Assembly (NCBI RefSeq): GCF_900110865.1
Contig: NZ_FOFD01000004.1
Location: 571,378-635,377, forward strand
Direction: 5' to 3'
Source: Natrinema salaciae
Lineage (GTDB): Archaea > Halobacteriota > Halobacteria > Halobacteriales > Natrialbaceae
DNA length: 64,000 nucleotides
The position numbers were made by a program, and so were the translations under genes. Numbering within the stretch: position 1 is the stretch's first letter; each line of letters opens with the position of its first letter. This document shows positions 28,311 through 42,898 of this stretch, one piece after another. The notes under the pieces were generated by a model. It saw only the letters and a list, made by a program, of their open reading frames with translations, was not told the origin of the DNA and ran no database searches.

Positions 28311-29561
28311 ATGCGTCGTTCTCGATCGGGCAACCACGACGATCCGACGCTAGTGGCGGCCGAGCGCGAGGGAGCAATCGAACTGCAGATTCACGTGGGG
28401 GTACTGGTTGCGCACGCTCCGGAAACCGACCCGGATCAGCTCCAGACGTTCGCGACGCAAGTTGCCGAAGACACGGTCGACGAACTCGCGTCGGCCACGG
28501 AGGTCACCTGGCGGTTCTACCTCGAGGACGCTAGCAACCTCCCCGACCACGATCAGCGACGGCCCTCGGAATTCCTCGATCACGCCACTCATCAGATGGT
28601 CGAGGGGCCGTACGACTTGATCGTCGTCGTGACGGACGTACCACTCGTCTCAAGCAAGGAGCAGTTCGTCCCGGGACTGGCGTCGCCGCTCTCTCGCGTC
28701 GCCATCGTCTCGACGGAGAACCTCCGCAGTGCGCCCCGCAACGAGCCCCGACGCTCACTCGAGGACGACGCCGTCCGCTGGAATACAGCGACGCTCGTGG
28801 TCCATCTCGTCGGGCATGTGCTGGGCGCTCGCCACCGTGACGCCGACGGGGGCGTCATGGAACCGTTCCGGTTCGATCCGGAGCGACGGGCCGTTCCACC
28901 GATTGACGCAGACATCGAGCGGGACCTCCATCGGATTGCCGCAGAACTCTCCGCGGCCGAGGCCCGCCCGCGGGGTCCGATAGAGCGCTTCGCCTTCCAC
29001 GTGGCCAGTGCTGCCCGAAACCCCGGACAGATCCTGCAGGCGCTCGGTAACAGCCGGGCACCGTTGTTGCCGCTCTCGTTACCGAAGCTGTCGACAGCCG
29101 CGCTGGCACCGACGCTCGTCATCGTCTTCAGCGCCGAATCATGGGACGTCGGTTTCCATATGACAAACGTGACGGCAGCACTTTTCGCGGCCGTAAGTGT
29201 CCTCACTGCAGCGCTCTACCTCCTATTCGTCCAGAACCTCACCTTCCCGCGAAAGCGACATCAGATCGTCACCGAACACACGGCCCTGGTCAACGTCACA
29301 GTCTTTTTCGTCCTTCTTCTGGCGATGGTCGGCTTATTCGGGCTCGTGTGGACGATCATCCTCGTCATCGAACTGGTCGTCTTCCCGCCGAATCTGATGT
29401 CAAACTGGCCGAGCCTGGAGGAGCCAGCCGTTGGCTTCGTCGATCTCGTCCGGACTGGTGCGTTCATCAGCACCGTCGGGGTACTCTCGGGTGCGTTGGC
29501 GGGCGGGCTGGAGAGTCGGGTTATCATCAGCCACCTTGCGCTGTTCCCCGACCGACCGTAG
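28311..29561 (+). CDS. Membrane-anchored zincin-like protein lacking the catalytic Glu
   Basis: A 416-residue protein from the ATG at 28311. Residues about 1-210 look like a metzincin/archaemetzincin-type domain: a long beta/alpha part, then VVHLVGHVLGARHRD near 163-177 and GGVMEP a few residues later, matching the spacing of HExxHxxGxxH followed by the Met-turn. The catalytic Glu is replaced by Leu (HLVGH), while all three His are kept. Four hydrophobic helices follow (about 265-290, 300-325, 335-365, 385-405). Metal binding seems possible, peptide hydrolysis doubtful. The upstream open frame is not conserved-looking. A related intact archaemetzincin gene lies at 8.1-8.6 kb. Confidence 0.75.
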   Translation: MRRSRSGNHDDPTLVAAEREGAIELQIHVGVLVAHAPETDPDQLQTFATQVAEDTVDELASATEVTWRFYLEDASNLPDHDQRRPSEFLDHATHQMVEGPYDLIVVVTDVPLVSSKEQFVPGLASPLSRVAIVSTENLRSAPRNEPRRSLEDDAVRWNTATLVVHLVGHVLGARHRDADGGVMEPFRFDPERRAVPPIDADIERDLHRIAAELSAAEARPRGPIERFAFHVASAARNPGQILQALGNSRAPLLPLSLPKLSTAALAPTLVIVFSAESWDVGFHMTNVTAALFAAVSVLTAALYLLFVQNLTFPRKRHQIVTEHTALVNVTVFFVLLLAMVGLFGLVWTIILVIELVVFPPNLMSNWPSLEEPAVGFVDLVRTGAFISTVGVLSGALAGGLESRVIISHLALFPDRP

Positions 29562-29628: not shown

Positions 29629-29644
29629 GGCCTCGGCACTCATA
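29629..29644 (+). repeat. 16-bp direct repeat, left copy
   Basis: GGCCTCGGCACTCATA occurs here and again, in the same orientation, at 42759-42774. The two copies flank most of the low-GC island. Confidence 0.5.
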
Positions 29645-29783
29645 CCGCGCGGAATTAGCATTAGATGATACGTTCGTGGTAGATCGGCATAGGGGTAGTT
29701 TATTACCACGTCTGTGGTGGATCACTGGTAGGGTGGTCACTCACATGACTGATACAAGGCGTGGCCGCCCTATCTAATGTATG

Positions 29784-30277
29784 ATGACCGATCGACCGCA
29801 GTGGGAAGAATCGATGGGACTGGCAGAGGGGTCGACACGGGTCACGCTCACGTGTAGCAAGAAGGAACGCGAAATCTGGAGTAAAGAGGCTGCCAAGGAG
29901 GGTTCAGCAGCCGATCCAAATATCTCTATATCTTGATCCAGGAGGCACGGGCGTACCGGGAGCATGGAGTGTTCGCTGATCGGAGTAGTGAGGAGCGGAT
30001 TGAGGAATTAGAGACGGAAGTTGAACTACTGGAGAATCGATTGGAACGGGAACAAGTGAAACGGAGTGCTCGCGTCGAAGTCGACGATGCGAGGTTCCTT
30101 GAACGCTATTTGGAGGATACGTACAAGACGCAGTCCGAGCTGCTACAGGAGATTGTGGAGTCCGGGGCGATGGATGACCTGATCCGAAAACGGATTGAAG
30201 ACGAGCTGTACGTCATGGCCGGTAAGGGCCAAGTTGAGTATGAACCCGGATGGGGCTGGAGACTCAGCACCGATTAG
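29784..30277 (+). pseudogene. Frameshifted ribbon-helix-helix/coiled-coil protein
   Basis: The first frame from the ATG at 29784 encodes MTDRPQWEESMGLAEGS, a likely DNA-binding strand (TRVTLTCS) and helix (KKEREIWSKEAAKEG), then hits TGA at 29934. Shifting frame just after the Gly at about 29911 continues smoothly as FSSRSKYLYILIQEARAYR, the expected second helix, followed by a coiled coil (EERIEELETEVELLENRLE) and a winged-helix-like C-terminus ending at 30277. Together these give a protein of about 164 residues with an RHH-type N-terminus. A single-base change in GAGGGTTCAG explains the break. Either a recent pseudogene or, less likely, a programmed frameshift. Confidence 0.7.
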
Positions 30278-30763
30278 AGCAAACACCATAGGTTCGTAAA
30301 ATGGTGTATTTCACACCGTATTTCTTCCATCAATAGTACATCGATACCAATTAGTACTCGTCATTAAAGTTGGACGAGACTGAGTACGTGGAGTATATCA
30401 AGCAGCCCCCTCATTTATCGTCATATTTGAATATTCATACGGGAGACCGGTGTTACATACTATCCGTTTAGAATATACAAACGCAAAATCATACAGGTAG
30501 AAATCTGCGTTTTTATCACGTCATCTAGCACTGTAGGCCACATTTAGGGGGATTGACGGTGAAGGTCATACGTTACCAATGTTTAGAGCGAAGGCAGCAA
30601 ACCAGAGAATAGGTGATACATCCAAATTACAGAACATTCAGATTGCTCCTATTCGTTTCTCGAGGATAGGCCTCAAGAGGTTTGTTTCCAGTACGAACTG
30701 TGATCCAGTTACTGTGGCGATTCCACTATATAAAGGAGAGATTAGCTCCAATGGTTTCCATCT
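30278..30763. other. AT-rich intergenic region
   Basis: A stretch of 486 bases, clearly richer in A and T than the core genome. No gene is supported; a 62-codon frame at 30579-30767 has no haloarchaeal protein character. The right end contains the promoter of the epimerase gene. Confidence 0.5.
30726..30734 (+). promoter_or_regulatory. TATA box of the glycan cluster
   Basis: CTATATAAA, a consensus archaeal TATA box, lies about 34 bases before the ATG of the epimerase/decarboxylase gene. Confidence 0.6.
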
Positions 30764-31726
30764 ATGACGAGACTTGTTACGGGCGGTGCAGGCTTCGTAG
30801 GTAGCCACCTGTGCGACTCGCTACTTAACAGTGGGAAGCAAGTGATTTGTCTCGATAATATAGGAAGCGGACAGTACCGAAATATCGAGCACCATCTGGA
30901 CAAAAAAGAGTTCGAATTCATCAACGGAGACGTGAGAGATGATATTGGGAAGTCTCTTTCTACAGAATCCGTAAATCCTGACTCGATCGACCGAATTTAT
31001 CACCTGGCCTCGCGTGCGTCACCGAAAGACTTCAGATCTCACCCGATCGAAATTGCGACGACGAACAGTCAGGGGACGTACAATATATTCTCGTTTGCGA
31101 ACGACGTTGATGCTCGTGTTCTGTTCGCCAGTACGAGCGAAATATACGGTGATCCCGAAGTTCACCCCCAGCCGGAGTGGTATGCTGGCAACGTCGATCC
31201 ACGTGGCCCACGGTCATCTTATCAGGAGGGCAAACGACTTGGTGAATCATTGGCAGTTTCCTTCTACAAAGAACACGGACTTGACGTCCGGACAGCACGC
31301 CTTTTCAACACGTATGGACCAAGAATGCGACCGAACGATGGCCGAGTCGTCCCTACCTTCATGTTCCAGGCAGTAGAGGGTCGTAATCTCACAGTTTACG
31401 GAGATGGTACACAGACACGGTCTTTGCTCTATATTGCGGATCAGATCCATGGCCTACGTAGGTTGATGGATGCAACCGGATTTGCGGGTGATGTCGTGAA
31501 CATCGGTAGCACAGCCGAGATCACCATCAACGAACTCGCGAAAATGATAATCCAGCTAACCGGAACGAGGTCCGGAATTACTTACGAGCCGCTGCCAGAA
31601 AACGGGCCCCCTCGGCGCAGACCGGATATTTCGAAAGCAGTCAGAAGATTAGGTTGGAAACCCACTATCGACCTCGACTACGGTCTTGACCAGACGTTAC
31701 TGTACTTCGAAAACCAGATGAGATGA
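30764..31726 (+). CDS. NAD-dependent epimerase/dehydratase, UDP-glucuronate decarboxylase-like
   Basis: A 320-residue extended short-chain dehydrogenase. The NAD loop TGGAGFVGSHL is at residues 6-16, the active-site block ASTSEIYGDPEVHPQPE near 121-137 and the catalytic YQEGK near 153. The phrases GDPEVHPQ, NVDPRGPRSSYQEGKRLGE and RTARLFNTYGPRMRPNDGRVVP are characteristic of UDP-xylose synthase (UDP-glucuronate decarboxylase), although related epimerases cannot be excluded. It would make a nucleotide sugar for surface glycans in the cytoplasm. It begins the glycan cluster and is followed, 24 bases later, by the flippase-like gene. Codon use is less GC-biased than in the flanking core genes. 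Confidence 0.88.
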   Translation: MTRLVTGGAGFVGSHLCDSLLNSGKQVICLDNIGSGQYRNIEHHLDKKEFEFINGDVRDDIGKSLSTESVNPDSIDRIYHLASRASPKDFRSHPIEIATTNSQGTYNIFSFANDVDARVLFASTSEIYGDPEVHPQPEWYAGNVDPRGPRSSYQEGKRLGESLAVSFYKEHGLDVRTARLFNTYGPRMRPNDGRVVPTFMFQAVEGRNLTVYGDGTQTRSLLYIADQIHGLRRLMDATGFAGDVVNIGSTAEITINELAKMIIQLTGTRSGITYEPLPENGPPRRRPDISKAVRRLGWKPTIDLDYGLDQTLLYFENQMR

Positions 31727-31750
31727 TCTCACGGACTTGATTGAAGTCAG

Positions 31751-32752
31751 ATGGTAAGGGGCTCTCCTAGTGGAAGGAAACTGCGGCAGGCTCTTTCATT
31801 CGTTTTTGGATCCGTAATTATCGCGCTACTCGTGTGGTATACGGGCTATCGTGAATTCGTTACTGCCTTGAATAGCGCCTCACTTCCACTGATTCTATTG
31901 GGAGTCATAATTTACCTCCTTAGTTGGCCCGTTCGGATAATCCAGATGTATGTCTGCCTACTAGTACTCCGTTCCAAACTCGGAGCGAGGGACTTATTCG
32001 AGATTAATATCGCGGGATACGCGATCAATGTGATTCTCCCCGCAAAAATCGGCGACGTTGCACGCGCTGTCTACCTTACTCAGGAAGGGGTTCCGATAGA
32101 TCGCGCCGTTGCCACGATCACGTACATCAGGATCGCAGACCTAGCCGGTGTCACGTGTCTTGCTCTTTTCACCGCGTCGTTTATCGAGACAGCGTTATTC
32201 CCTTCGTGGCTTCAGCGAACGTTCATCGGGGTAGTAGCGTTACTTATGATGGTACTCACTTTTGCGATCATCAGCCGTTACGCAGACGGTACAGTCACAC
32301 TGACCACCACTTGGACGAGAATGATCGGTCTTATCGAATCGCGACTTTTCCATAACATCGTCCACATCGGAGGGCAGATAACCGTTGAATTCGATCGACT
32401 TGTTTTCTCTCCCTATTCGCTTTTCACCACAGCTATCACAAGCGTTATAATCTGGATTCTCGAGGCGCTAACTGCCTACGTGATTGCCCTGTCACTTGGT
32501 TTCCACACTCCAGTGATCACTATCGTGTTTGCGGTCAGCGTCGCTAATATGACAAACGTTCTCCCGCTGACTCCGGGGAGTCTCGGCGTCTACGAGGCGG
32601 CATTCACTGCGTCACTTGGACTCTTCGGCCTTACGACCGGTGCAGTCGTCGCCGTCGCACTTCTCGAACATGCGTTGAAAAATCTGTTTCTCGTTGCCGT
32701 TGGGATCCCCATCGCGACGCAACGTGGAACCGGGGTCGTTCTGGAATGGTAG
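31751..32752 (+). CDS. Flippase-like integral membrane protein (UPF0104/AglD-type)
   Basis: A 333-residue membrane protein with about eight helices. It belongs to the lysylphosphatidylglycerol synthase transmembrane family (UPF0104): SWPVRIIQMYVCLLV near residue 56, INIAGYAINVILPAKIGDVARAVYL near 85-109 and the late LPLTPGSLGVYEAAFT near 274 are its landmarks. In haloarchaea such domains occur in AglD, where they accompany dolichol-linked sugar transfer, or stand alone as candidate lipid-sugar flippases. Located directly after the nucleotide-sugar enzyme, so a role in moving or modifying lipid-linked glycans is likely. Confidence 0.85.
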   Translation: MVRGSPSGRKLRQALSFVFGSVIIALLVWYTGYREFVTALNSASLPLILLGVIIYLLSWPVRIIQMYVCLLVLRSKLGARDLFEINIAGYAINVILPAKIGDVARAVYLTQEGVPIDRAVATITYIRIADLAGVTCLALFTASFIETALFPSWLQRTFIGVVALLMMVLTFAIISRYADGTVTLTTTWTRMIGLIESRLFHNIVHIGGQITVEFDRLVFSPYSLFTTAITSVIIWILEALTAYVIALSLGFHTPVITIVFAVSVANMTNVLPLTPGSLGVYEAAFTASLGLFGLTTGAVVAVALLEHALKNLFLVAVGIPIATQRGTGVVLEW

Positions 32753-32799
32753 CCAGCCGAACGGTTCATGGTTCGAGTGATGCGAGCATCTATTTCTGT

Positions 32800-33840
32800 T
32801 TAGCGTCTTTCTTCGATGCGATCCAATCGGGTACGTATTTGTTCACTCGCGAGAACTGGAACGAGTGTCTGGAACGCAAGGATCAGGAACAGCACCGTGA
32901 GAAGGGGATAGAAGTCGTGTTGTACATCACCTGTTCGTACTACGTCGACGATCGAAACGATACCGGTGTACCCCCCCACGACGAGGAATACGGAACTAAG
33001 CGCCATCGCCGTTTGTAGCAGTGGCGATGATTCGTAGGCGAGGATCGTAAGAATCGTACGTATCATACGCCACCCGTCCCGAATAGGGCGAAGTTTGGTT
33101 TCGCCCACCCGCGTTCGGTAATCGATAGGAATCTCGGCGATTCTATATCCCTGTTTCGCAGCGTGTAACGTCATCCCCGTCTCGAACTCCAGATTCGCCG
33201 TGTACTCCGAATCTAGCATCTCGAAATTTTCGCGTTTCATGGCCCGCATACCGGTCTGGGCGTCAGTGACCGAAACACCGCCAAAAAAGGACACTATAAA
33301 CGAAAATAGTCGATTTCCGATCATATTGATCGGTGGAATGTTCCTCGTTCCGCGGGAGACCCGTGACCCGAGAACGAGATCAGCACCTGCGCGAATCTTC
33401 GCTCTCATATCGGAAATATGATTAGCAGGGTACGTCGCATCGGCATCAGTAAAGACGACGATGTCACCAACAGCGTTCGAAACGCCCGTTCGAAGCGCGT
33501 TGGCTTTCCCCCTATTCTGTTCGTGAGCGACGTACCGGACGTTCTCGAGCGACGACGCGAGTGCCTTGCCGATCCTGGGAGTATCATCGGTGCTTCCGTC
33601 GTCGACGACGAGTAGTTCGTCCGAATACTCGAGGTATTCCTCGACGACCGATCGCAAAGCTTGCTCCTCGTTGTACGCCGGAATCACGGTAGTGACCGTT
33701 GATCCGTTTCGGTGCGTTCGATGGTGATCGTTCGTCTGTCGAGCAGGCGATTCATTACTGGGGTCCCCGTCGGTATCGCCTGTATCGTCGACAGCGAAAT
33801 CGGTCACGGTGAGCTGCATATCGAATCGTGAACTCTCCAC
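32800..33840 (-). CDS. GT2 glycosyltransferase, dolichyl-phosphate-sugar synthase type
   Basis: A 346-residue enzyme. The GT-A core starts with VTTVIPAYNEEQALRSVV (residues about 48-65), with VVDDGSTDDTP near 77 and the metal-binding DADATYP near 131. The motifs GSRVSRGTRN and TDAQTGMRAMKR are those of dolichyl-phosphate mannose/glucose synthases. Two membrane helices (about 283-303 and 313-332) anchor the C-terminus. It would transfer a sugar from a nucleotide donor to a polyprenyl phosphate on the inner membrane face. The acidic N-terminal extension (about 45 residues) is unusual, and a start at Met8 is also possible. It converges with the flippase-like gene. Confidence 0.88.
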   Translation of the reverse strand: MESSRFDMQLTVTDFAVDDTGDTDGDPSNESPARQTNDHHRTHRNGSTVTTVIPAYNEEQALRSVVEEYLEYSDELLVVDDGSTDDTPRIGKALASSLENVRYVAHEQNRGKANALRTGVSNAVGDIVVFTDADATYPANHISDMRAKIRAGADLVLGSRVSRGTRNIPPINMIGNRLFSFIVSFFGGVSVTDAQTGMRAMKRENFEMLDSEYTANLEFETGMTLHAAKQGYRIAEIPIDYRTRVGETKLRPIRDGWRMIRTILTILAYESSPLLQTAMALSSVFLVVGGYTGIVSIVDVVRTGDVQHDFYPLLTVLFLILAFQTLVPVLASEQIRTRLDRIEERR

Positions 33841-33981
33841 TCGCGTAGCGACTACGTCGACAAAACCAATAATACCGAAACCCCCCGAGTAGATTCGATC
33901 AATTCCGGTTGTGAGAGGGGAAAGCGGTTACCGGTCTCAGTGAAAGCTATCGTCGGTTCCGACCGTCGCGCTTCTGAACAC

Positions 33982-35532
33982 CTACGTTTTTCGAAATAAA
34001 ATACCCCCCGATTTGAACCGTTTCACAGGTTCGTACTCCTCTTCGAAGGCCGGATTGTTCAGGTACTCCGTTCTGACGTCCTCGTTGAACGCGTTTTCCT
34101 CGTCGAAATAGCGGTAATAGCCGCTAACATACACGTATTCAACACCGGAGATGCGGTTCCTCATCTCTTCGTACTGGGCGGGAAGCCACACTGACGGGCG
34201 ATCCGCGTACCATGCGACCACCCACGGTGCATCCGATACGATAACGGCGTCCTCGTCCGTGTGCTCGCGAATGAATTCGAGATCCTCGTTCTCGGCATAC
34301 TCGGACGCATCATCGTCGGTGACGACGTTTGACGGCTGTTGAGCAGAGAGGCTGCTGAGCACGACGACGTTCGGGGCGAGCAGGACGATAATGAGCACGA
34401 CAGCAAGCAACGGACGACCGTACTCACGTCCCTGTTCGAACTTCCGGTAGACGAACGCGCTCGCGAAGATGACGACAAAGGGAGCAAACGGCACGAAGAG
34501 ACGGGTGTGGGGAAGAAAGAACGAGAGTGCAATCAACTGAGACACGATCATGAGAACGATTCCGAGGACGAGATTTCGATGTTTGCTCGGATAGAACTCG
34601 AGAAAGCCGCCGATGGCCAATGCCGGAACGAGGAAGTTTCTAAAGAGAGTCGGAATATCGACCGACAGCGCCATGGCGTTAGTTGCCGCTTTTCGCAGCA
34701 TTATCCCCGGATACGTGAGGAAGAACCCAACCGGATCAACCGGGTCAAACATTCTGTAGAGGGTATCATACGGGTAGATCGCAGTGTACATGAGGAGTTC
34801 GTATCTGTAGAGTGAGAACAACGGATCGCCGGTCAGCAAGTAATTTCGTACGAGCCACGGCGAAATCACGATACTGAATCCGGCGGCGAGTTTCGTCATC
34901 GCCCGTTTCCAATCGTCGTAGTGGAGGGAGACGAACACGAGAAATCCAGGAAGGAGAAGTAACACGTTGTATCGAGTGAGGTACGCTAAACCGAGGGCAA
35001 CTCCGACGAGCGCGCCGTTGGACCGTCTATACGCCAAGTAGAGTGCGATCGTGAACAAGAAGGTGAACAGCGGTTCGCTTAGTCCGGATAACGCGTACTC
35101 GATGGACAGTGGAGACGTAGCAACAATAATCCCGGCCAACAGCCCGACAGGCTTTTCGAACAGTGCCTTTCCGAAGTGGTACACGACGGGGACGAGTAGT
35201 ACATAAAAGAAACCCGAGATAGCGTAGACGGCATAGTGATTGACCCCAAAGAGAACGAACGAGGCAGCGACGGCCAACGGAAACAGCGGCGCGCGTTTGA
35301 AACTCGGATGGTGGACGAGAGAATCGTCGAACGCGAGGGAGAGCGGGTAGATCTCCTTCGTCGTGAAGCCGTCACCACGGTATATATTTCGAGCGATTTG
35401 TGCGTAATCGATGGAATCAACCGTTCGTAATCCGTCCATCTGCAGTACGACCGTTCCAAACAGGATCGCCGCAAAGAGGGTTAGACCGATCGTGTGGAAC
35501 GTTTCTCTGGACGCGCCCGGAGAGTTCACCAT
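33982..35532 (-). CDS. GT39-like membrane glycosyltransferase
   Basis: A 516-residue protein with about eleven transmembrane helices and a C-terminal soluble part (residues about 420-516). The first extracellular loop holds SIDYAQIARNIYRGDGFTT, with the acidic residue that defines the ArnT/PMT (GT39-GT83) active site, and HHPSFKRAPLFPL follows. Such enzymes use dolichyl-phosphate-linked sugars outside the membrane, so the neighbouring dolichyl-phosphate synthase genes could supply the donor. The last domain (EDAVIVSDAPWVVAWYADRPSVWLP) is the usual periplasmic-type module. The acceptor, protein or lipid, is unknown. Confidence 0.85.
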   Translation of the reverse strand: MVNSPGASRETFHTIGLTLFAAILFGTVVLQMDGLRTVDSIDYAQIARNIYRGDGFTTKEIYPLSLAFDDSLVHHPSFKRAPLFPLAVAASFVLFGVNHYAVYAISGFFYVLLVPVVYHFGKALFEKPVGLLAGIIVATSPLSIEYALSGLSEPLFTFLFTIALYLAYRRSNGALVGVALGLAYLTRYNVLLLLPGFLVFVSLHYDDWKRAMTKLAAGFSIVISPWLVRNYLLTGDPLFSLYRYELLMYTAIYPYDTLYRMFDPVDPVGFFLTYPGIMLRKAATNAMALSVDIPTLFRNFLVPALAIGGFLEFYPSKHRNLVLGIVLMIVSQLIALSFFLPHTRLFVPFAPFVVIFASAFVYRKFEQGREYGRPLLAVVLIIVLLAPNVVVLSSLSAQQPSNVVTDDDASEYAENEDLEFIREHTDEDAVIVSDAPWVVAWYADRPSVWLPAQYEEMRNRISGVEYVYVSGYYRYFDEENAFNEDVRTEYLNNPAFEEEYEPVKRFKSGGILFRKT

Positions 35533-35545
35533 ACCTCGTCCTCAG

Positions 35546-36319
35546 TTACGTTTCCGGCTCGAGAAGCCTATAAGCTGTCCACCGCCGCCTGAACCACGAC
35601 GTCGCATTCTCTATCCACTCCCGAAGTCTAACCCGTATCAAGCCTCGGAGCAGCTCCACTACCGTGCCGACGGGTGCGACCGTCGTTTCGGGTGAATCGC
35701 GCCACGTGATCGGTACCTCCGTGATCCGGCCGCCTCGAGCCCCAACCCGGGTAACGAGGTCGACGTCCCAGGCGAACCCCGGTTCGATGAGGTCCGACCG
35801 AACCTCGAGCCACATCTCCCGCGTGATCGCTTTGGCACCGCACTGGTAGTCCGAAAGCGACACCTCGAGTAGCCGCCGGGCGAGCCACACGAATCCCGTC
35901 CCGAGCCAGCGTCGCAGTCGGGGTTGCGGCGTCTCGATAACCGCGTTTGGGTGACGCCGTGAGCCGACGGCGAGATCCGCGCGCCCCTCGACAACGGGTT
36001 CCAGTACTGCCGCGAGCGATTCGGCCGGCGTGCTGGCGTCGGCGTCGACGAAGGCGAGGACGTCCGTCTCGAGGTGATCGAAGCCACAGGAAACGGCCGC
36101 GCCCTTTCCGCGGCGCGTGTCAGCCGCGTGAACGAGCGCTGGCATCGACCGGAGCCGGGAGACCGTCGTCCGGTTGGCTGCTTCCAACTCGACGAGGATC
36201 GTCTCCGGGCGTATCCGCTTCTCGAGCGAGCGGACGTAAGACTCGAGCACCGAAACGTTCGGATGATACGCGGGGACAACGACGCCCACAGACGATGCCT
36301 CAGTCATGGAGTAGCTCAA
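35546..36319 (-). CDS. GT2 glycosyltransferase, second copy
   Basis: A 257-residue GT-A enzyme of the dolichyl-phosphate sugar synthase group. It begins with VGVVVPAYHPNVSVLESYV and has LAFVDADASTPAE near residue 90 as the metal motif and GSRRHPNAVIETP near 120. SDYQCGAKAITREMW corresponds to the TDAQTGMRAMKR block of its neighbour at 33 kb. It lacks C-terminal membrane helices but ends in a basic, aromatic amphipathic stretch (RLREWIENATSWFRRRW) that may bind the membrane. A Met four codons in (36307) is an alternative start. It is 13 bases upstream of the GT39-like gene on the same strand, so likely in its operon. Confidence 0.85.
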   Translation of the reverse strand: MSYSMTEASSVGVVVPAYHPNVSVLESYVRSLEKRIRPETILVELEAANRTTVSRLRSMPALVHAADTRRGKGAAVSCGFDHLETDVLAFVDADASTPAESLAAVLEPVVEGRADLAVGSRRHPNAVIETPQPRLRRWLGTGFVWLARRLLEVSLSDYQCGAKAITREMWLEVRSDLIEPGFAWDVDLVTRVGARGGRITEVPITWRDSPETTVAPVGTVVELLRGLIRVRLREWIENATSWFRRRWTAYRLLEPET

Positions 36320-36337
36320 ATAGGGATTCCCTCCCCA

Positions 36338-36586
36338 TCAGGGCGTAGGTTCAGGGGTGGGAGTCGAACCACAGTTGACGTTCTTGTTCTTCTCCTCAAC
36401 CGTGTCTGCGGAGTCTGCCGGGACGGACCACGCTTCACCGCTCTGTTCGTTCACGCAAACTACCCTCTCCTCGTCGGTATCCGGCGCAGTCGGCGCAGCT
36501 GCGGCAAATCCAGCGAGAAGGCTGATCAAGAGCATACCGACGACGGCAACTTCTAACCAGCGTTCAAATGTCATACGTTGGGCCAT
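36338..36586 (-). CDS. Small exported protein of unknown function
   Basis: An 82-residue protein. Residues about 10-32 form a hydrophobic signal or anchor (VAVVGMLLISLLAGFAAAA). The remaining 50 residues are acidic, with two cysteines (VVCVNEQSG and NVNCGST) that could form a disulfide, and a threonine/proline tail (TPTPEPTP) suitable for O-glycosylation. It is located inside the glycan cluster on the same strand as the two transferases that follow. Not recognised as any family; a surface or substrate-like role is only suggested by position. Confidence 0.65.
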   Translation of the reverse strand: MAQRMTFERWLEVAVVGMLLISLLAGFAAAAPTAPDTDEERVVCVNEQSGEAWSVPADSADTVEEKNKNVNCGSTPTPEPTP

Positions 36587-36712
36587 TTTGATTCCTCGTC
36601 AGACGACACGCTCATAATAACTCGGTGTGCTGTCCTTGCTAGAGAGAGGATTGCAGCGTATATAAACAAATTTCAGTCTATTTGGAGTGATATCTACAAT
36701 TGACTTACTGCG

Positions 36713-39022
36713 TTATTCACCGTCGACGAGAGACTCTCGATCGACCTTGTAGATGGTAACGTGGTCATCCTCGTAGGCGGTCGAAATTCCCGGCCGTCGC
36801 TCGAATTCGACTACGTCGTAGCGCTCTCGCTCTTCCGGGCCGACGTAGATGTACTCCACGTCGTACTTCTCGAGGAGACGGGCCTGGACGGCCGGCTCCG
36901 CGGTATACATGAGTCTCACTTCGACGATGCGGACGACGTACGCTTCGGGATCACGATACCCGATCTGGTGTGCCCACCCGGCCACGGTCGGTACTCCAGT
37001 CAGCGACGACGGTGCATTTTCCCACCGATACCGTTCTAGACCGGGTGCGTCCACGATGGTGGGTTGCCCCTCTCGCTGATCGATCCACGTGATTGCGTCG
37101 GCCTCCTCCGGATGTTGCGTCTCGACGAACGCGAGCGCGTCGAGCGTGGGGTCGTCGGTCCGCGCGGGCGGTGAGTCCCTCGTGAAGTGCGTCCCGAGCG
37201 CCAGACCGCCGTACAGTGAGAGCGTAAGGAGTAATCCGACGACGGCGACCGGCGCTAGTTTCCCCCGAAGAGGGACACCCTCCCACGAGCGGCGATGGAC
37301 AAGCGAGGGAGGGATGAATCCTGAGAGGATGACGCCGGCGGCGAGACTCCAGAGGATCCACGTCTGAAAGTACGTCTTGAAGACGGTGTTGATCCGGCCG
37401 GGGCCGGCACCGTCCTGGAGGTACACGAATTCGACGAGGAGTATCAGGCCCGCACCAGCAACGAAGAGGACTCCCTCGTAGTCGACGTTGTCCGTCTCCC
37501 ACTGTAAGAGCGCCGCGATCGCGAGGAGCGGACCGACCAGAACGAGTACGCCGACGTTCGCGAACCAACCGACCCCCATCAGGAGGGCGAACAAGACGAG
37601 GAGGCGACGGGTTCCCTCTGGGTCAAGAAAGGGTCTAACGCGAGGTAGAAAATAGAGCGCGAAAATAAGCAGAAATGCACCCTGAACGAGAAGAAATTCG
37701 CCGATCAGACTTCGTTCGGGAAGGAATCCAATCGGGCGCGAACTCGCCGTCTGAATGACGAACGGCAGGACCGACGCCAAACTGCTCAGCCCGATCGCCG
37801 ACGTGACGATGGCACCCAGTGCGAACTTGTTTCCTGCACTTATGAGTGGCCGCGTTATCCCGCCATTCGCGTCAGTAGCCTTGGTTGCGGTCCGAATTCG
37901 CTGCGGAAGAAGAGTAAACGGGTGCGCCGGAGCGAACAGGAGTGTTACGAACACTAGTCCGCAAGCCGTTGGAAAGCTCCACGTATCGATCAGCATCGTT
38001 ACTCCGATTACTGGAACGGTACTCCCGAGGAGCAGCCACCGTCGCTGACGGGCGGAAACGGGGGTCTGGTAGTATGCGAGGAGAAGTGCAACAGTGAGAA
38101 CGAGAAATGGGGTACTCGTAAGATATGCGTGCAAATCACCGTGAACGAAACCATAGAGCGGGAATTCGTTGATCGTATCGCCGATCACGCGCGTCGGGGG
38201 GCCTATGTCAAATGGATAGAGCGTCGGGACGATGTTCGGATCCACACCGAAGAAGTCGATAAGTCGGTCGGAAGGCGTGTCCGGAAGTAGCCGCAACAGC
38301 AGACCTACGGGTGTGTAGAGATTACTTGCGAAACCGACGAAGAACGCAGCAAAAACACCTGCTGTACGTGGCGGAACCCCACGGGTGTCGGCGATCGCTC
38401 GTGCAACACCATATGCACTCGTCACGAGCATTGCATAGAAGCCGGCGAGAGCGAGATTGTACGAGTACCGTCCTGGCGTTCCGGTGAGCCTCGAAAGGAG
38501 GGCTGTGATCAGATGCCCACCGTAGTAATACTGAATCGGTTCACCGGCGAACCACATGTCTTCGGGTGGAAGTTGCTCCGACCGTAGCAACGATTGCAAA
38601 ATTCCGAAGTCGAGAAACGCTTCTCCTCCTTGCGGAGTCACTGCCGGATCGACTGCTCGTATTGCGATTAAAAAGCTGAACGCGACCGTGAACACCAGCA
38701 GCGATTCGATATATGACCGCCAATCGAGCATGGGTCTCTGTCCACGCCGAACCGCGACAGCGATTACGAGACCGAGTCCGAGGAGTCCACCACCCAGTGC
38801 CATATTGCTGAAAGTGATCTGTCCGATCCAGAATGCGAGTAGTGTGAAGATCACGAGCGAAAGCGGGAGAGCGACGGTCAGTCCTCGGTCGGGAAAGTGC
38901 GGAAGCAACCAAGCAGCTAGTGGTGCTCCCAGAAGCGTCAATAATTGAAAAGCCGCCAACCAGAGAATCACTAACCCCCATTCCATCACTCTTGTGTAGG
39001 ATGATTGTAACAATAGATTCAT
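36713..39022 (-). CDS. DUF2298 (Chlor_Arch_YYY) giant membrane protein
   Basis: A 769-residue protein with about eighteen predicted membrane helices. The name-giving YYY motif occurs in MWFAGEPIQYYYGGHL near residue 161, preceded by GGEAFLDFGILQSLLRSEQLPPED, typical of this chlorobi/archaeal family. The soluble C-terminus (about 625-769) includes DAITWIDQREGQPTIVDAPG and EYIYVGPEERERY, similar in shape to the end of the GT39-like protein. DUF2298 proteins are presumed lipid-linked glycosyltransferases but not biochemically characterised to my knowledge. A start at Met13 (38986) gives a more typical N-terminus. Part of the surface-glycan cluster. Confidence 0.88.
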   Translation of the reverse strand: MNLLLQSSYTRVMEWGLVILWLAAFQLLTLLGAPLAAWLLPHFPDRGLTVALPLSLVIFTLLAFWIGQITFSNMALGGGLLGLGLVIAVAVRRGQRPMLDWRSYIESLLVFTVAFSFLIAIRAVDPAVTPQGGEAFLDFGILQSLLRSEQLPPEDMWFAGEPIQYYYGGHLITALLSRLTGTPGRYSYNLALAGFYAMLVTSAYGVARAIADTRGVPPRTAGVFAAFFVGFASNLYTPVGLLLRLLPDTPSDRLIDFFGVDPNIVPTLYPFDIGPPTRVIGDTINEFPLYGFVHGDLHAYLTSTPFLVLTVALLLAYYQTPVSARQRRWLLLGSTVPVIGVTMLIDTWSFPTACGLVFVTLLFAPAHPFTLLPQRIRTATKATDANGGITRPLISAGNKFALGAIVTSAIGLSSLASVLPFVIQTASSRPIGFLPERSLIGEFLLVQGAFLLIFALYFLPRVRPFLDPEGTRRLLVLFALLMGVGWFANVGVLVLVGPLLAIAALLQWETDNVDYEGVLFVAGAGLILLVEFVYLQDGAGPGRINTVFKTYFQTWILWSLAAGVILSGFIPPSLVHRRSWEGVPLRGKLAPVAVVGLLLTLSLYGGLALGTHFTRDSPPARTDDPTLDALAFVETQHPEEADAITWIDQREGQPTIVDAPGLERYRWENAPSSLTGVPTVAGWAHQIGYRDPEAYVVRIVEVRLMYTAEPAVQARLLEKYDVEYIYVGPEERERYDVVEFERRPGISTAYEDDHVTIYKVDRESLVDGE

Positions 39023-39224
39023 CGGAAAAAATCCCTCCTTTCCTTCGCTGTGTCTTATAGTAGATCACCAACACCCAATTGTACTGAGTACGGAAGAAAC
39101 GGTAACAGCTATTCGTGGAACTCGAACGGCCACAGTAATAATAGAAACCCGGTAGATCGAGCGTTGGTGCGCAGCAGCATTCAAACCGGCCGCAAAACCG
39201 TAGACGATCTTGGAAGCAGGGCAC

Positions 39225-39889
39225 GCGGTAGGATTCTTCTGGGCTGAATTCGCAGACATCCTCCAGAGGACAGTCCTCACAACGTGGATTCGTCGCCGTA
39301 CAGACCTCAGCACCGAAATCGATGAGCGCGTGAATGTAATCGCTGCTTCGTCCCGAGGGCAGCAGTTCTTCGGCTAATTCTCAGTTCTCGCTCGCCTCTG
39401 GTTTATCACCGCAGTCGAGACCGAAAACGCGTGAGAGAATTCGAGCTACGTTCGTATCGACGGCGGCGACGTCCTTCTTGAACGCATGGGCGAGAACCGA
39501 GGTAGCGGTGTATTCTCCGACGCCCTGTAGTTCGAGTAGTTCCGACCGAGTATCGGAACAGTACTATTGTGGTCCTCGACGAGCTGTTCAGACGTCTCTC
39601 GGAAGTACCGAGTGCGCTTCCGTAGCCCGAGCGATTCGATATCGTCCGCAAGTTCCTCTTGGGGAGTATCGAGTATCGGTTCCGGTTTCGGATACTTCTG
39701 GACGAGATCACCGTAGACATCCAACACTTGGCCTGCTGAGGTTTGCTGGAGCATGAATTCAGCGACGAGCATATTGAACGGTGTAGCATCGTCCGAACGC
39801 CAAGGAAGGTCGTGTCGCCCTCGTTCTTCGTACCAGGTGAGTAGATTTTCGACGAAGAAAGCGGACCGGTCTGATGAAGGTATAGACAC
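39225..39889 (-). pseudogene. Broken MIG-type mismatch DNA glycosylase (HhH-GPD, [4Fe-4S])
   Basis: The minus strand encodes a helix-hairpin-helix glycosylase in two frames. The first frame covers TWYEERGRHDLPWR, AEFMLQQTSAGQV and ADDIESLGLRKR; the AG-V form and the GL-(x)-R block resemble the archaeal thymine-DNA mismatch glycosylase MIG more than MutY. Near 39555 one base is missing from a CCGGAT-like site; the other frame then reads ELLELQGVGEYTA (the HhH), DTNVARILSRVF with the catalytic Asp, then a TGA at 39381-39383 where WELAEELLP is expected, a TGG-to-TGA change. The cluster Cys pattern C-x6-C-x2-C-x5-C is intact, but no natural stop follows. Two independent lesions make it a dead gene. 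Confidence 0.75.
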
Positions 39890-39930
39890 CTCTGGTCCTA
39901 CTTTCCCATTTAGAGATTAGGACGCCGATG

Positions 39931-40422
39931 TCACTCCTCAAAAGGATACCAATCGCAGTCATAAGGCGAATCCTCGCCTTGTCCTCCAACTGAGAGCGTA
40001 ACAAAGACACCAAAATCGTATTCTAATTCCTCTACATAAGCCGTGAGCTTCTCACGGTCGTACTCGCCTGAACTCCCCGATTTCTTTGTTTCAATCACTA
40101 GAAGATTCTCATAGTGTTCTCCCCGTTTGTGAACGATGACATCCGGATAGACCGTCTTAGCATCGAGGTCTTCCGGGTCGACGTCATCAGAGATTTTACT
40201 CTTGAGGTACTCCATCGGGATAGCTTTGCTCACGTCGTCCTCGCCGACTCGATTATACTCTACATCAACATCCCATTCCTCGTCTACTTCCTCGCGGAGA
40301 TAGACGGCCAGTTTATGAGTTATACTCCTCTCGTTGACATCGTACTCCAGTAGGTCGGCATCCTCTTCAGCGACTCTCTCAAGCGCATCGGAGACCACCT
40401 GTCGGACCTCTTCTTCGTTCAT
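39931..40422 (-). CDS. PD-(D/E)XK-like nuclease-fold protein
   Basis: A 163-residue acidic protein. Residues about 1-45 are helical (EEEVRQVVSDALERVAEEDADLLEYD). The later part has VYPDVIVHKRGEHYENLLVIETKKS near 90-115; an Asp, a spacer of about 15 residues, then E-x-K, the active-site pattern of PD-(D/E)XK nucleases. The C-terminal YDREKLTAYVEELEYDFGVFVTLS also fits this fold. It stands 41 bases upstream of the broken mismatch glycosylase on the same strand. In archaea MIG-type glycosylases accompany cytosine-methylating restriction systems, so this could be a restriction-associated protein. No methyltransferase gene is seen here. Confidence 0.7.
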   Translation of the reverse strand: MNEEEVRQVVSDALERVAEEDADLLEYDVNERSITHKLAVYLREEVDEEWDVDVEYNRVGEDDVSKAIPMEYLKSKISDDVDPEDLDAKTVYPDVIVHKRGEHYENLLVIETKKSGSSGEYDREKLTAYVEELEYDFGVFVTLSVGGQGEDSPYDCDWYPFEE

Positions 40423-40437
40423 GTGCTGGTGAATGGG

Positions 40438-40557
40438 TTATGCGTGAAAATTTTTCTTTTCGCAATTTCGACAGGTATCCCATTGTCCCGTCTTCACTTT
40501 CTGCTTTTCACCGTACTCTGAGCACTCACGCCAAACTGAGCGATTTCCGTAGGACAT
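40438..40557 (-). CDS. Possible 39-residue micro-protein with Cys pair
   Basis: A short frame from ATG at 40557 to TAA at 40438. The sequence contains WRECSEYGEKQKV, then GQWDTCRNCEKKNF, giving C-x(15)-C-x2-C, which looks like part of a small zinc finger. It ends 15 bases before the nuclease-like gene's start on the same strand and might be its leader or co-transcribed partner. Too short for statistical support; a fragment of a larger zinc protein is also possible. Confidence 0.35.
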   Translation of the reverse strand: MSYGNRSVWRECSEYGEKQKVKTGQWDTCRNCEKKNFHA

Positions 40558-40684
40558 ACCCTCACTAACAGAATCCTATGGTAAATCTCTGACTCATAAT
40601 TCGAGCGTCCACCTTCTGAACTACTTTCACCCCGGTTGGATGACCTTCTTGACAGTCGGTTTCAAAGTATGGACCACACTCAAT

Positions 40685-40978
40685 ATGAGCGAGATTATCT
40701 GTAAAGCGATCCGGGAGCAGAAAGTTCTCGAATTCACCTACGACGGGCATCATCGAAAGGTCGAACCTTACTGTCACGGCCAAAGCAAGAAGGGCAAAGA
40801 GTCACTTCGAGGCTACCAAATCGCAGGAGGGAGCAACTCGCGACGAGTTCCATTCTGGCGTCTCTTTACCGTAGCGAAGATGGGGAACCTAACGCTGACA
40901 GACGAGACGTTCAACGGGAACCGGCCCCACTACAACCCGAACGACAAGGACCTATCCCCGATTCACTGCAACATCTAA
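40685..40978 (+). CDS. WYL-like domain protein
   Basis: A 97-residue protein starting at the ATG at 40685. It resembles an isolated WYL domain: ICKAIREQKVLEFTYDGHHRKVEPYCHG at residues 4-31, LRGYQIAGGSNSRRVPFWRLFTVAKMGNLTLTDETF at 40-76. WYL domains bind nucleic acid or nucleotide ligands and commonly regulate phage-defence and CRISPR loci. There is no helix-turn-helix part, so it may act as a ligand sensor for another protein. The next gene starts two bases after its stop, so the two are co-translated. Confidence 0.75.
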   Translation: MSEIICKAIREQKVLEFTYDGHHRKVEPYCHGQSKKGKESLRGYQIAGGSNSRRVPFWRLFTVAKMGNLTLTDETFNGNRPHYNPNDKDLSPIHCNI

Positions 40979-40980
40979 CG

Positions 40981-41334
40981 ATGGACAAGGAACGTGCGAA
41001 AGAACTGATGCTCGAAGAACGAGAAGGCGACGAGGGATTCAAAGACTCGATTGTCGTCCTCGAGATGGACCTCATTGAGGACGACGCGGGCATCATCCGA
41101 GGTGAGCTGATAATCGAAGGCGAAGTTGATACTACCGGGAGTCTCCTCGTACCGGTCAACGAGCCGAAGCCGGAGAGTTGGCGAGACCTCGACGTCGGAG
41201 AGACGAAAGCGTACGGCCTCCGAGTTGATTCTCGGAAGGAGACGCTGCGGGAGAAGATGAGTTCCATCTTCAGTCGCAGTTTAGAGGAAGGACGCGTGCA
41301 AGATTTCGTCCCAGGAACGCCACCAAGGACGTAG
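40981..41334 (+). CDS. Hypothetical protein paired with the WYL-like gene
   Basis: A 117-residue acidic cytoplasmic protein of no recognised family. It starts with a helix (MDKERAKELMLEEREG), followed by a predicted beta-rich centre (IVVLEMDLIEDDAGIIRGELIIEGEVDTTGS), a proline-rich turn (EPKPESW) and a C-terminal basic-acidic helix (SRKETLREKMSSIFSRSLEEG). No catalytic or metal motif visible. Its start follows the WYL-like stop by two bases. Function unknown; probably acts with the WYL protein. Confidence 0.7.
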   Translation: MDKERAKELMLEEREGDEGFKDSIVVLEMDLIEDDAGIIRGELIIEGEVDTTGSLLVPVNEPKPESWRDLDVGETKAYGLRVDSRKETLREKMSSIFSRSLEEGRVQDFVPGTPPRT

Positions 41335-41374
41335 AGGCCTTCTCTTCCACTCAGGTAAGATATCGACGGATATG

Positions 41375-42469
41375 CTAGTACTGGTGTTCGAAGCTCAACT
41401 CAGCGTGCTCATAGGAGTACGATTTGATACCGGACTCTTCACAGTGAGAGCTAAGCTCTGCCGGAGGGACATATACTTGCTTTTCCGATTCCTCATCGAA
41501 ATGGTGAAGGAACGCGATAGAGACATTTCGGTCCACCTCGCTGACATCGACGACTACCGCTAAATCTGGGTCGTCGTAGTCGGGCTTGATGACGTAGTCG
41601 CCCGGTGTGAATGGGTTCTCCGCAAACTCCAGATTTGTGTGCTTGTAGGTGTAGAGCTTGATATCTTGGTCGTCGCAGTAGGATGCAAGCTTCGCCGGGT
41701 GGATTTCGCGCCAGTTCCCGGGACCCTCATCGAGCATATTCGGGAACGCGACATTGACTGCCTCACCGTCCATCTCCTGCCCGTAGGCGGTGGTATTTTT
41801 CTCGGGTGGCAAGACCTCTACGACCACCGCGACTGACGCATCATCATCGCCTTTCTTCACAACACGGTCGCCAGGTGAGAAGGGGTTCTCGGGTTTCTGG
41901 TTGAGGTGGGCTGTGTTCGGCCCGAGGTCGTGCAGTTCATTCATTGGACGAGAAGCCAAGTGTGCGATCTTCTCAGGTTCCTCACCGGAGTAAGCTTCCT
42001 GAGTCTTCACCTTCGACTTGAGCGTTTCAGTCCGTTCCCACCCGAGGAGGATGAGTGCATCTTCGTTATCTCGATGCCATACCATCACGATGACATCATC
42101 ATCCGGGTCGTTCTCGAGGAGGTTCGCAGGGCGAAAGGCGGAGACGTCACGGGAGGTTTTCACGTCTATCTCATATCCAAACACCTCGAAGTCGTGTCCG
42201 GAGAAACTCTCTGGATTGCACCGACGGATGGCCTCCTCATTTTGCCATTCCCACATCTCGACGGGAAGATATTCGCGACAGAACTGTTCAAAGGCGAGTT
42301 CACCGAGATTCCCGATGCGCTTGACGTCAAGATTGTCAGCACCTTGGATGACCGCCTGATGATGGGCTCGCTCTCTGTCGATTTCGTCCGGCGTATACAG
42401 ATACATGATATCCAGATTATCTGATTTTATAATATATCTTTCCATTAGGTTGATGTCAAGGGTGACCAA
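41375..42469 (-). CDS. Nuclease-like protein with two copies of a novel repeat domain
   Basis: A 364-residue protein. Residues about 45-130 resemble a restriction-endonuclease fold: NLGELAFEQFCREYLP (helix with Glu), then GHDFEVFGYEIDVKTSRD with D-(x10)-DVK, and DVIVMVWH, a typical core strand. After a linker, two related units of about 80-88 residues occupy about 195-282 and 283-362. Each starts ENPF-(S/T)-PGD-x-V, continues with DDxxxAVVV-(E/D)-V, a central AF strand with DE, then PA-(K/E)-L-(A/S)-S-x-C and IK-x-Y-(T/S)-Y-x-H. The repeat was not recognised. A start at Met9 or Met22 is also possible. Candidate defence protein. Confidence 0.7.
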   Translation of the reverse strand: MVTLDINLMERYIIKSDNLDIMYLYTPDEIDRERAHHQAVIQGADNLDVKRIGNLGELAFEQFCREYLPVEMWEWQNEEAIRRCNPESFSGHDFEVFGYEIDVKTSRDVSAFRPANLLENDPDDDVIVMVWHRDNEDALILLGWERTETLKSKVKTQEAYSGEEPEKIAHLASRPMNELHDLGPNTAHLNQKPENPFSPGDRVVKKGDDDASVAVVVEVLPPEKNTTAYGQEMDGEAVNVAFPNMLDEGPGNWREIHPAKLASYCDDQDIKLYTYKHTNLEFAENPFTPGDYVIKPDYDDPDLAVVVDVSEVDRNVSIAFLHHFDEESEKQVYVPPAELSSHCEESGIKSYSYEHAELSFEHQY

Positions 42470-42898
42470 CCGAGGTACAACCGGTGGTCAGAACGCTGGT
42501 TCCTTCTGAAGCGTACTCTGTAGTAGAATACTCCCTGACGAAAGAAATCTTCAACGCCATAATCATCACCTCTACGTCTCACCCGAATCTTTCCACTCGT
42601 TCTCGAACCTGCTCAATTTCGTTAAACGTGCACTCGTAGGAGGGAATCTATGTACTCGAGGCCCGCCCGACGGCGAGCGCATTCAGATTTAGGCTTTGTC
42701 CTCTCCTGCCCGAGTTGTTTGTTTTTTGATTGGTGAAACAAAGGGTCGGTAATAGTTGGGCCTCGGCACTCATAGGGCTCGTCACGACCGGATGCCGAGT
42801 CCGGCTCGGAGCGGGTGCGTCGTCATCGGCCACGCGAGGATACGGCAGTCGCTCCAAAGACGGTTTGGATTCCCGGGAGAACGACGCCGCGCGCCGGC
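42470..42898. other. Intergenic region at the right island border
   Basis: A stretch of 429 bases containing the right copy of the 16-bp direct repeat (42759-42774) and T-rich tracts near 42715-42730. No gene was recognised. GC content rises sharply after about 42750, marking the return to core-like composition. Confidence 0.5.
42759..42774 (+). repeat. 16-bp direct repeat, right copy
   Basis: GGCCTCGGCACTCATA, identical to and in the same orientation as 29629-29644. Confidence 0.5.

Follow-up and report, generated by a model that had tools for sequence, protein, structure and literature searches.

A defence-type gene cluster beside the sR-tMet guide RNA gene of Natrinema salaciae, probably the end of a composite integrated island

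What brings together a tight group of nuclease-like, sensor-like and broken genes in which no familiar defence system can be recognised? The question is raised by a 64,000-nucleotide stretch of the Natrinema salaciae genome (contig NZ_FOFD01000004.1, positions 571,378 to 635,377 of the forward strand; hereafter the window, whose own numbering is used throughout), where an initial annotation, made from the letters alone, described positions 39225–42469 as a candidate defence-type cluster and left it as either a remnant or a single unfamiliar system. The answer we favour, at a probability of roughly 85%, is that the cluster forms the end nearest to the guide RNA gene sR-tMet in a composite island, one that arose by site-specific insertion at the 3' terminus of this gene and that has lost its integrase and kept its modules. 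This answer builds on observed repeats, boundaries, integrases in relatives, defence enrichment and homologies. Every gene that had been singled out is present: two intact proteins with PD-(D/E)XK patterns, an isolated WYL-like domain with its partner, a micro-gene with a cysteine pair, and a dead MIG-type glycosylase (Table 1). Taken as a whole, the earlier interpretation holds as to a defence-type remnant and fails as to one system, and it had overlooked the sR-tMet gene and the direct repeat flanking the island. Genomes and loci used for comparison are referred to below by G and L numbers, respectively.

The sR-tMet gene, which forms the right border of the island, encodes a C/D-box guide RNA scoring above the gathering threshold of its Rfam family (50) and matched at full length in 28 of 28 genomes; according to Joardar et al. 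(2011), as cited in PMC4033218, it guides 2'-O-methylation of the elongator tRNA-Met in haloarchaea. The 16 bp at its 3' end, TATGAGTGCCGAGGCC, occur twice in the window (0.03 expected), with the copies 13,130 bp apart; every other direct repeat pair reported between positions 29400 and 42900 is shorter. Chromosome flanks on both sides of the island so delimited are conserved within the genus, and DNA similarity to 14 same-genus genomes begins abruptly at 42759. The flank that follows the distal copy, ATCGATTTCCACGTACCAC, is the sequence found directly 3' of sR-tMet in G202 and, less closely, in G207 and G145; in these three genomes, 18 of 25 bp match beyond the core (the terminal 14 bp of the gene), against a maximum of 16 in 7,400 random placements. 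The 3.6 kb of the island nearest sR-tMet is the gene cluster, and the distal part holds genes of surface-glycan type. A tRNA as the insertion target was ruled out, as ARAGORN found no tRNA in the window.

Table 1 Features of the sR-tMet-linked island, with positions in the window
Feature	Position	Strand	Evidence or remark
Distal (attR-like) copy of the 16-bp repeat, left island border	29629..29644	-	Exact repeat; then flank ATCGATTTCCACGTACCAC
D-type right arm (ATCTAATGCTAATTCCGCGCGGTA)	29643..29666	-	Common to the window and G193
Accessory island between the repeats, ~13.1 kb	29645..42758	.	GC content 0.52–0.54 versus 0.65–0.67 in the flanks
MIG-type mismatch glycosylase pseudogene	39232..39889	-	Intact at the same position in G152
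PD-lambda-3A-type PD-(D/E)XK protein, 163 aa	39931..40422	-	PADLOC PD-Lambda-3_A, E 2.3e-32
uZn, zinc-ribbon micro-protein, 39 aa	40438..40557	-	Relatives and dN/dS
Stand-alone WYL-like domain, 97 aa	40685..40978	+	PADLOC WYL, 1.7e-5
P4, WYL partner, 117 aa	40981..41334	+	Directly 3' of WYL in all its homologues
P5, 343 aa, PD-(D/E)XK motif and C-terminal SH3/Tudor-like barrels	41375..42406	-	Motif, model, homologues
A-type left arm (CAACTATTACCGACC...)	42732..42758	-	Common to at least 10 other haloarchaeal islands
Proximal (attL-like) copy of the 16-bp repeat, 3' end of sR-tMet	42759..42774	-	Exact repeat
sR-tMet, C/D-box guide RNA gene, right island border	42759..42831	-	Rfam RF02163, 65.5 bits, E 6.8e-11

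The end of sR-tMet also recurs behind the gene in other haloarchaea. We searched the 10–43 kb lying 3' of sR-tMet in 37 haloarchaeal genomes (886 kb in total) for the terminal 14-mer, TGAGTGCCGAGGCC, allowing at most one mismatch, and identified 27 same-strand recurrences in 22 of these genomes and 0 on the opposite strand, whereas control 14-mers from the rest of sR-tMet, not overlapping its end, recurred 0–4 times in the same genomes. Distal core copies were found in 7 of the 14 same-genus genomes that had been picked by synteny alone. The sequence beside the cores belongs to a few arm families (A, B and D) whose left and right arms are mutually inverted: A-type elements start with AACTATTACCGACY and finish with RGTCGGTAATARTTACTGGTT ahead of the core, while B- and D-type elements carry inverted arms of their own. 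ATCGATTTACNTGTACCAC-like sequence, which stands immediately behind sR-tMet in island-free relatives, comes after some of the distal copies, and three elements stand in tandem in G035. A tyrosine integrase of one family is found in the hotspot of 10 genomes (the G147 copy matches Pfam PF00589 at 2.5e-24). The exact A-type attL was confined to seven records, all Halobacteria, in a scan of 84,980 species.

Four further observations concern the ends and contents of such elements. At the A-type distal end in G243 (L200, 17447–18417), and also in G147 and G102, there is a 194-bp tandem unit, present in five copies in G243 and containing a TATA-like CTATAAATAG; each unit closes with the right arm and, in place of CGAGGCC, the variant CGAGTGC ahead of GTGTTCGTCC, a substitution that suggests a 7-bp crossover region. 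L204 (G255) encodes, between sR-tMet and the distal core, a DUF6414 protein and a KwaB-like one (Pfam, 4.5e-19). What looked by eye like a degenerate A-type right end at about 39114–39132 of the window was unsupported by a weight-matrix scan. The distal part of the window island (29645–39100) comprises epimerase-, glycosyltransferase- and DUF2298-type genes of low GC content together with the D-type arm, and is probably a second element.

Homologous exchange by itself, with conserved flanks allowing DNA to be swapped and the repeats being fragments of sR-tMet carried along, could account for the mixed arms of the window island and for modules that look exchanged between genomes. Such exchange would, however, bring fragments of variable length, whereas the repeats are limited to the terminal 14–16 bp on a single strand, and the inverted arms are family-specific and accompanied by co-resident integrases of one family; we therefore regard exchange alone as quite unlikely. 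Under site-specific insertion, which we prefer, a tyrosine integrase would recombine an element with sR-tMet through the 14 bp that the element's core and the end of the gene have in common, restoring a whole guide RNA gene, displacing the old flank and leaving a copy of the core at the far end. Elements arriving successively would bring anti-virus genes, so that defence modules would build up, decay and be exchanged. The window island would then be a composite of at least two elements, without an integrase, that has retained separate modules: a solitary PD-lambda-3A-type nuclease with uZn and the ruins of MIG, a WYL sensor-like pair, and the P5 nuclease. In G152 just 86 bp separate the end of the MIG gene from the distal core, so the 3.6-kb cluster may represent the greater part of a single small A-type element; the far end of this element would have been lost on its joining with the second element, now carrying surface-glycan genes.

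Several points weigh against this account. No A-type right arm was found in the window, and the island ends in one A-type and one D-type arm, making it composite and not one clean insertion. The match to the empty site (18 of 25 bp) is short. No integrase of the hotspot family is present in the window island and only distant relatives occur elsewhere in the genome, for which reason we call the window copy a remnant and not an intact element; the earlier use of that word was apt, as the glycosylase is broken, the integrase of the island family is gone and the two ends are of different arm types. Many of the 37 genomes were picked because they carry genes of the window, and scans of viral contigs and plasmids for the attachment motif yielded no free circular form. 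Gene B of PD-lambda-3 (TIGR02391/HEPN-like) is not beside the PD-lambda-3A-type gene of the window, whose neighbours are uZn, WYL and MIG. That the cargo still restricts viruses is an inference, and the trigger of each protein is similarly conjectural. Lastly, the defence enrichment counted in favour of the account, with 318 PADLOC families matched by 140 non-redundant island proteins versus 5 by 89 flank proteins, is a ratio that is indicative only, as families and not proteins were counted.

Restriction-modification accounts for the most frequent PADLOC matches among the island proteins. Together with a member of a known anti-phage family and a dead MIG gene inside the cluster, equivalent islands full of restriction and other defence genes bear out the label 'defence-type'. 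It had also been stated that no type I–IV restriction-modification, bacteriophage exclusion (BREX) or DISARM system is recognisable, and the cluster indeed has no PADLOC or NCBIfam signature match to them, except for a PADLOC model matched by the MIG glycosylase. A different origin would be a decayed provirus, its genes being viral cargo or anti-restriction functions: P5 matches the viral family PHROG 18072 (1e-182), and Haloferax virus Halfgib1 encodes a homologue of 80% identity. Yet none of the families tested pointed to a viral structural or replication gene, the commonest Pfam families of comparable islands are those of restriction-modification and not viral ones, and scans of viral contigs returned neither P5 nor the attachment motif. 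Of the alternatives considered, we give this one the least credence.

Islands anchored at tRNA or tmRNA genes, and defence islands at integration hotspots, are known (E. coli, PMC10121019; reviewed for archaeal tyrosine recombinases in PMC8371274), as are short att sites of 13–14 bp in the haloarchaeal SNJ2. The islands described here resemble those at tRNA and tmRNA genes in their tyrosine integrase, a core in the 3' end of a small-RNA gene, direct repeats, variable defence cargo and conserved flanks, and differ from them in being anchored at a C/D-box guide RNA gene. The archaeal review names tRNA, intergenic and protein-coding sites, the terms 'sRNA' and 'snoRNA' being absent from its text (PMC8371274), and we found no report of a guide RNA gene as an integration site in the open-licence literature; a hotspot of this kind therefore appears to be new. 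Integrons and gene-cassette arrays offer a second comparison, as elements are added at one site and tandem elements each end in a core (three in G035); unlike integrons, the elements bring their own Phage_integrase-family tyrosine recombinase and have inverted arms. A bolder extension, which we hold to be possible but doubtful, is that sR-tMet is a general haloarchaeal capture site at which integrases stack small defence elements in the manner of integrons, with uZn, given its position beside the distal core and its orientation toward it, as a recombination helper borne by the elements, and P5 as an undescribed family of stand-alone antiviral nucleases. If the explanation by site-specific insertion is true, a guide RNA gene for the modification of elongator tRNA-Met would be an address at which haloarchaea gather anti-virus genes, and reading the DNA 3' of sR-tMet would be a simple rule for finding archaeal defence genes. 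Archaeal genetics would further gain a set of integrases whose 14-bp target is known, and conserved, little-studied candidates would be at hand in P5, WYL with P4, and uZn.

Judged by their sequence relationships, the genes of the cluster are three modules, namely uZn with PD-lambda-3A and MIG, WYL with P4, and P5 alone, and their common factor is location. Among 195 haloarchaeal genomes, PD-lambda-3A was found in 5, WYL in 14 and P5 in 57, and P4 was found with certainty in 5 of 293 genomes. At the DNA level the cluster falls into blocks of separate history that match different genomes: 39232–40170 matches G152 (89% identity), 39914–40604 G188 (85%), 40433–41335 G147 (87%) and 40580–42440 G102 (87%), and P5 by itself matches about 20 fetched loci. 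PD-lambda-3A and MIG occur together elsewhere in G152 only. The ratio of nonsynonymous to synonymous substitution rates (dN/dS) for PD-lambda-3A, WYL, P4 and P5 is 0.02–0.22, which indicates purifying selection and shows that these are not random open reading frames.

The idea that all five genes form one new defence system, in which WYL would sense a nucleotide signal, P4 would relay it and two nucleases would cut viral DNA, draws on the tight spacing, on purifying selection acting on every intact gene, and on the presence of WYL, P4 and P5 in the same order and orientation at the matching block of G102, the only other place where these three were found together. It is contradicted by gene distributions that differ widely, by the other neighbours of PD-lambda-3A (a TIR protein in G188 and Mrr-type nucleases close by in G134 and G170), by the G203 element, where gene calling from attL to attR gave P5 as the sole intact gene, and by the orientation of WYL and P4, which are divergent from or convergent with their neighbours. 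A single system is consequently very unlikely. The clustering of homologues elsewhere, which the initial annotation had proposed as a check, gave a split outcome: P4 stands directly behind WYL wherever P4 was found, but PD-lambda-3A and P5 travel apart.

The PD-lambda-3A-type protein is probably a DNA nuclease. Its residues E31, PD94 and E111-x-K113 are invariant across haloarchaeal and enterobacterial relatives (the latter on plasmids and ~38% identical), and the catalytic residues are intact. Functional selection led to the discovery of PD-lambda-3 in E. coli (Vassallo et al. 2022, PMC9519451), and a later paper takes it as an example of an abortive system (PMC13190303). The window protein resembles PD-lambda-3 in gene A family, PD-(D/E)XK residues and size; in contrast to the arrangement on an Enterobacter plasmid, where gene B stands behind A, A is here alone between the zinc micro-gene and the MIG gene. 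A genome-wide search for PD-lambda-3B gave no match, and was uninformative because the control was likewise blank. A 240-aa neighbour of PD-lambda-3A in G170 bears no resemblance to PD-lambda-3B despite its R-x4-H motif.

The PD-lambda-3A gene starts 15 bp behind uZn, a real gene of 39 codons given its relatives at E < 1e-8 in 14 other genomes and a dN/dS of ~0.03–0.1 (<0.1 in most computable pairs), which also led us to reject a non-coding repeat. Most relatives have CPxCG...CRxC, and the window copy is down one of the four cysteines. uZn is encoded on the strand of sR-tMet and no more than 25 kb 3' of it in 13 of 15 genomes; many elements have it close to or at the distal core, frequently with no further gene in between, and it is always oriented toward the core. 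A conserved gene row was also seen in L070 and L149, consisting of a HATPase-domain protein, uZn and a PDC-S02/Mrr-type nuclease. On the other side of PD-lambda-3A, the MIG pseudogene is disrupted twice, by a 1-bp frameshift and by a premature stop. The intact relative in G152 has PDB 1kea, a MIG T/G mismatch glycosylase, as its best PDB match (2.1e-44, over nearly the whole length; best MutY 6.9e-36; PADLOC 4.1e-46), and we therefore assign the gene to the MIG type. Such an enzyme would have repaired mismatches arising from cytosine deamination; the window copy differs from the known MIG type in being dead and in lying beside a PD-lambda-3A-type gene, with no cytosine methyltransferase recognised in the cluster.

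The WYL-like protein consists of the WYL-like portion only, with no helix–turn–helix (HTH) part found in its 97 aa, and its match to Pfam WYL (E 0.013, score 16.0) is below the curated cut-off of 21.8. It is like the WYL regulators BrxR, CapW and WYL1 (PMC9122601, PMC9122588, PMC6547453) in WYL-like sequence and defence context, and unlike them in lacking an HTH and in being paired with P4. Bacterial WYL relatives are 43–45% identical and lie beside ATPase/nuclease genes; short homologues on Aliarcobacter and Deinococcus plasmids (L007, L008) adjoin SbcC-like or OLD-like ATPase/nuclease genes. P4 has a dN/dS of 0.07–0.08. The WYL and P4 pair may sense infection. Structure prediction, likewise proposed at the outset as a check, was of mixed use: the P4 model had a predicted local distance difference test (pLDDT) score of 48, too poor to be used, and the P5 model gave nuclease matches that are suggestive only, as described below. 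On a Natrinema pellirubrum plasmid (L006, 5345–5693), the WYL and P4 pair recurs with P4 frameshifted.

P5 probably starts at the ATG at 42406 and not at 42469, as had been listed, because its homologues begin there. Residues G32–E36, D72 and D81-x-K83 do not vary among 36 homologues, including one that is only 28% identical. In a model with a pLDDT of 82.6, the N-terminal part aligns with Eco15I, NhoI and the SPARDA DREN nuclease at Z 6.6–7.3, values below 8 being suggestive and no proof of kinship, and the C-terminus aligns with SH3/Tudor/KOW barrels, by which P5 differs from those three nucleases. With Foldseek by itself, the barrels dominated the matches of P5 and no nuclease stood out clearly. 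P5 is probably a DNA nuclease. A promoter dedicated to P5 is also probable, since the DNA upstream of its start (42407–42446) is conserved in many relatives and includes a TATA-like TATATTATAAAA. In the pleolipovirus Haloferax virus Halfgib1 (L002, 4668–6798), a DNA cytosine methyltransferase gene (dcm) immediately precedes the P5 homologue, an arrangement that would suit a restriction-modification pair.

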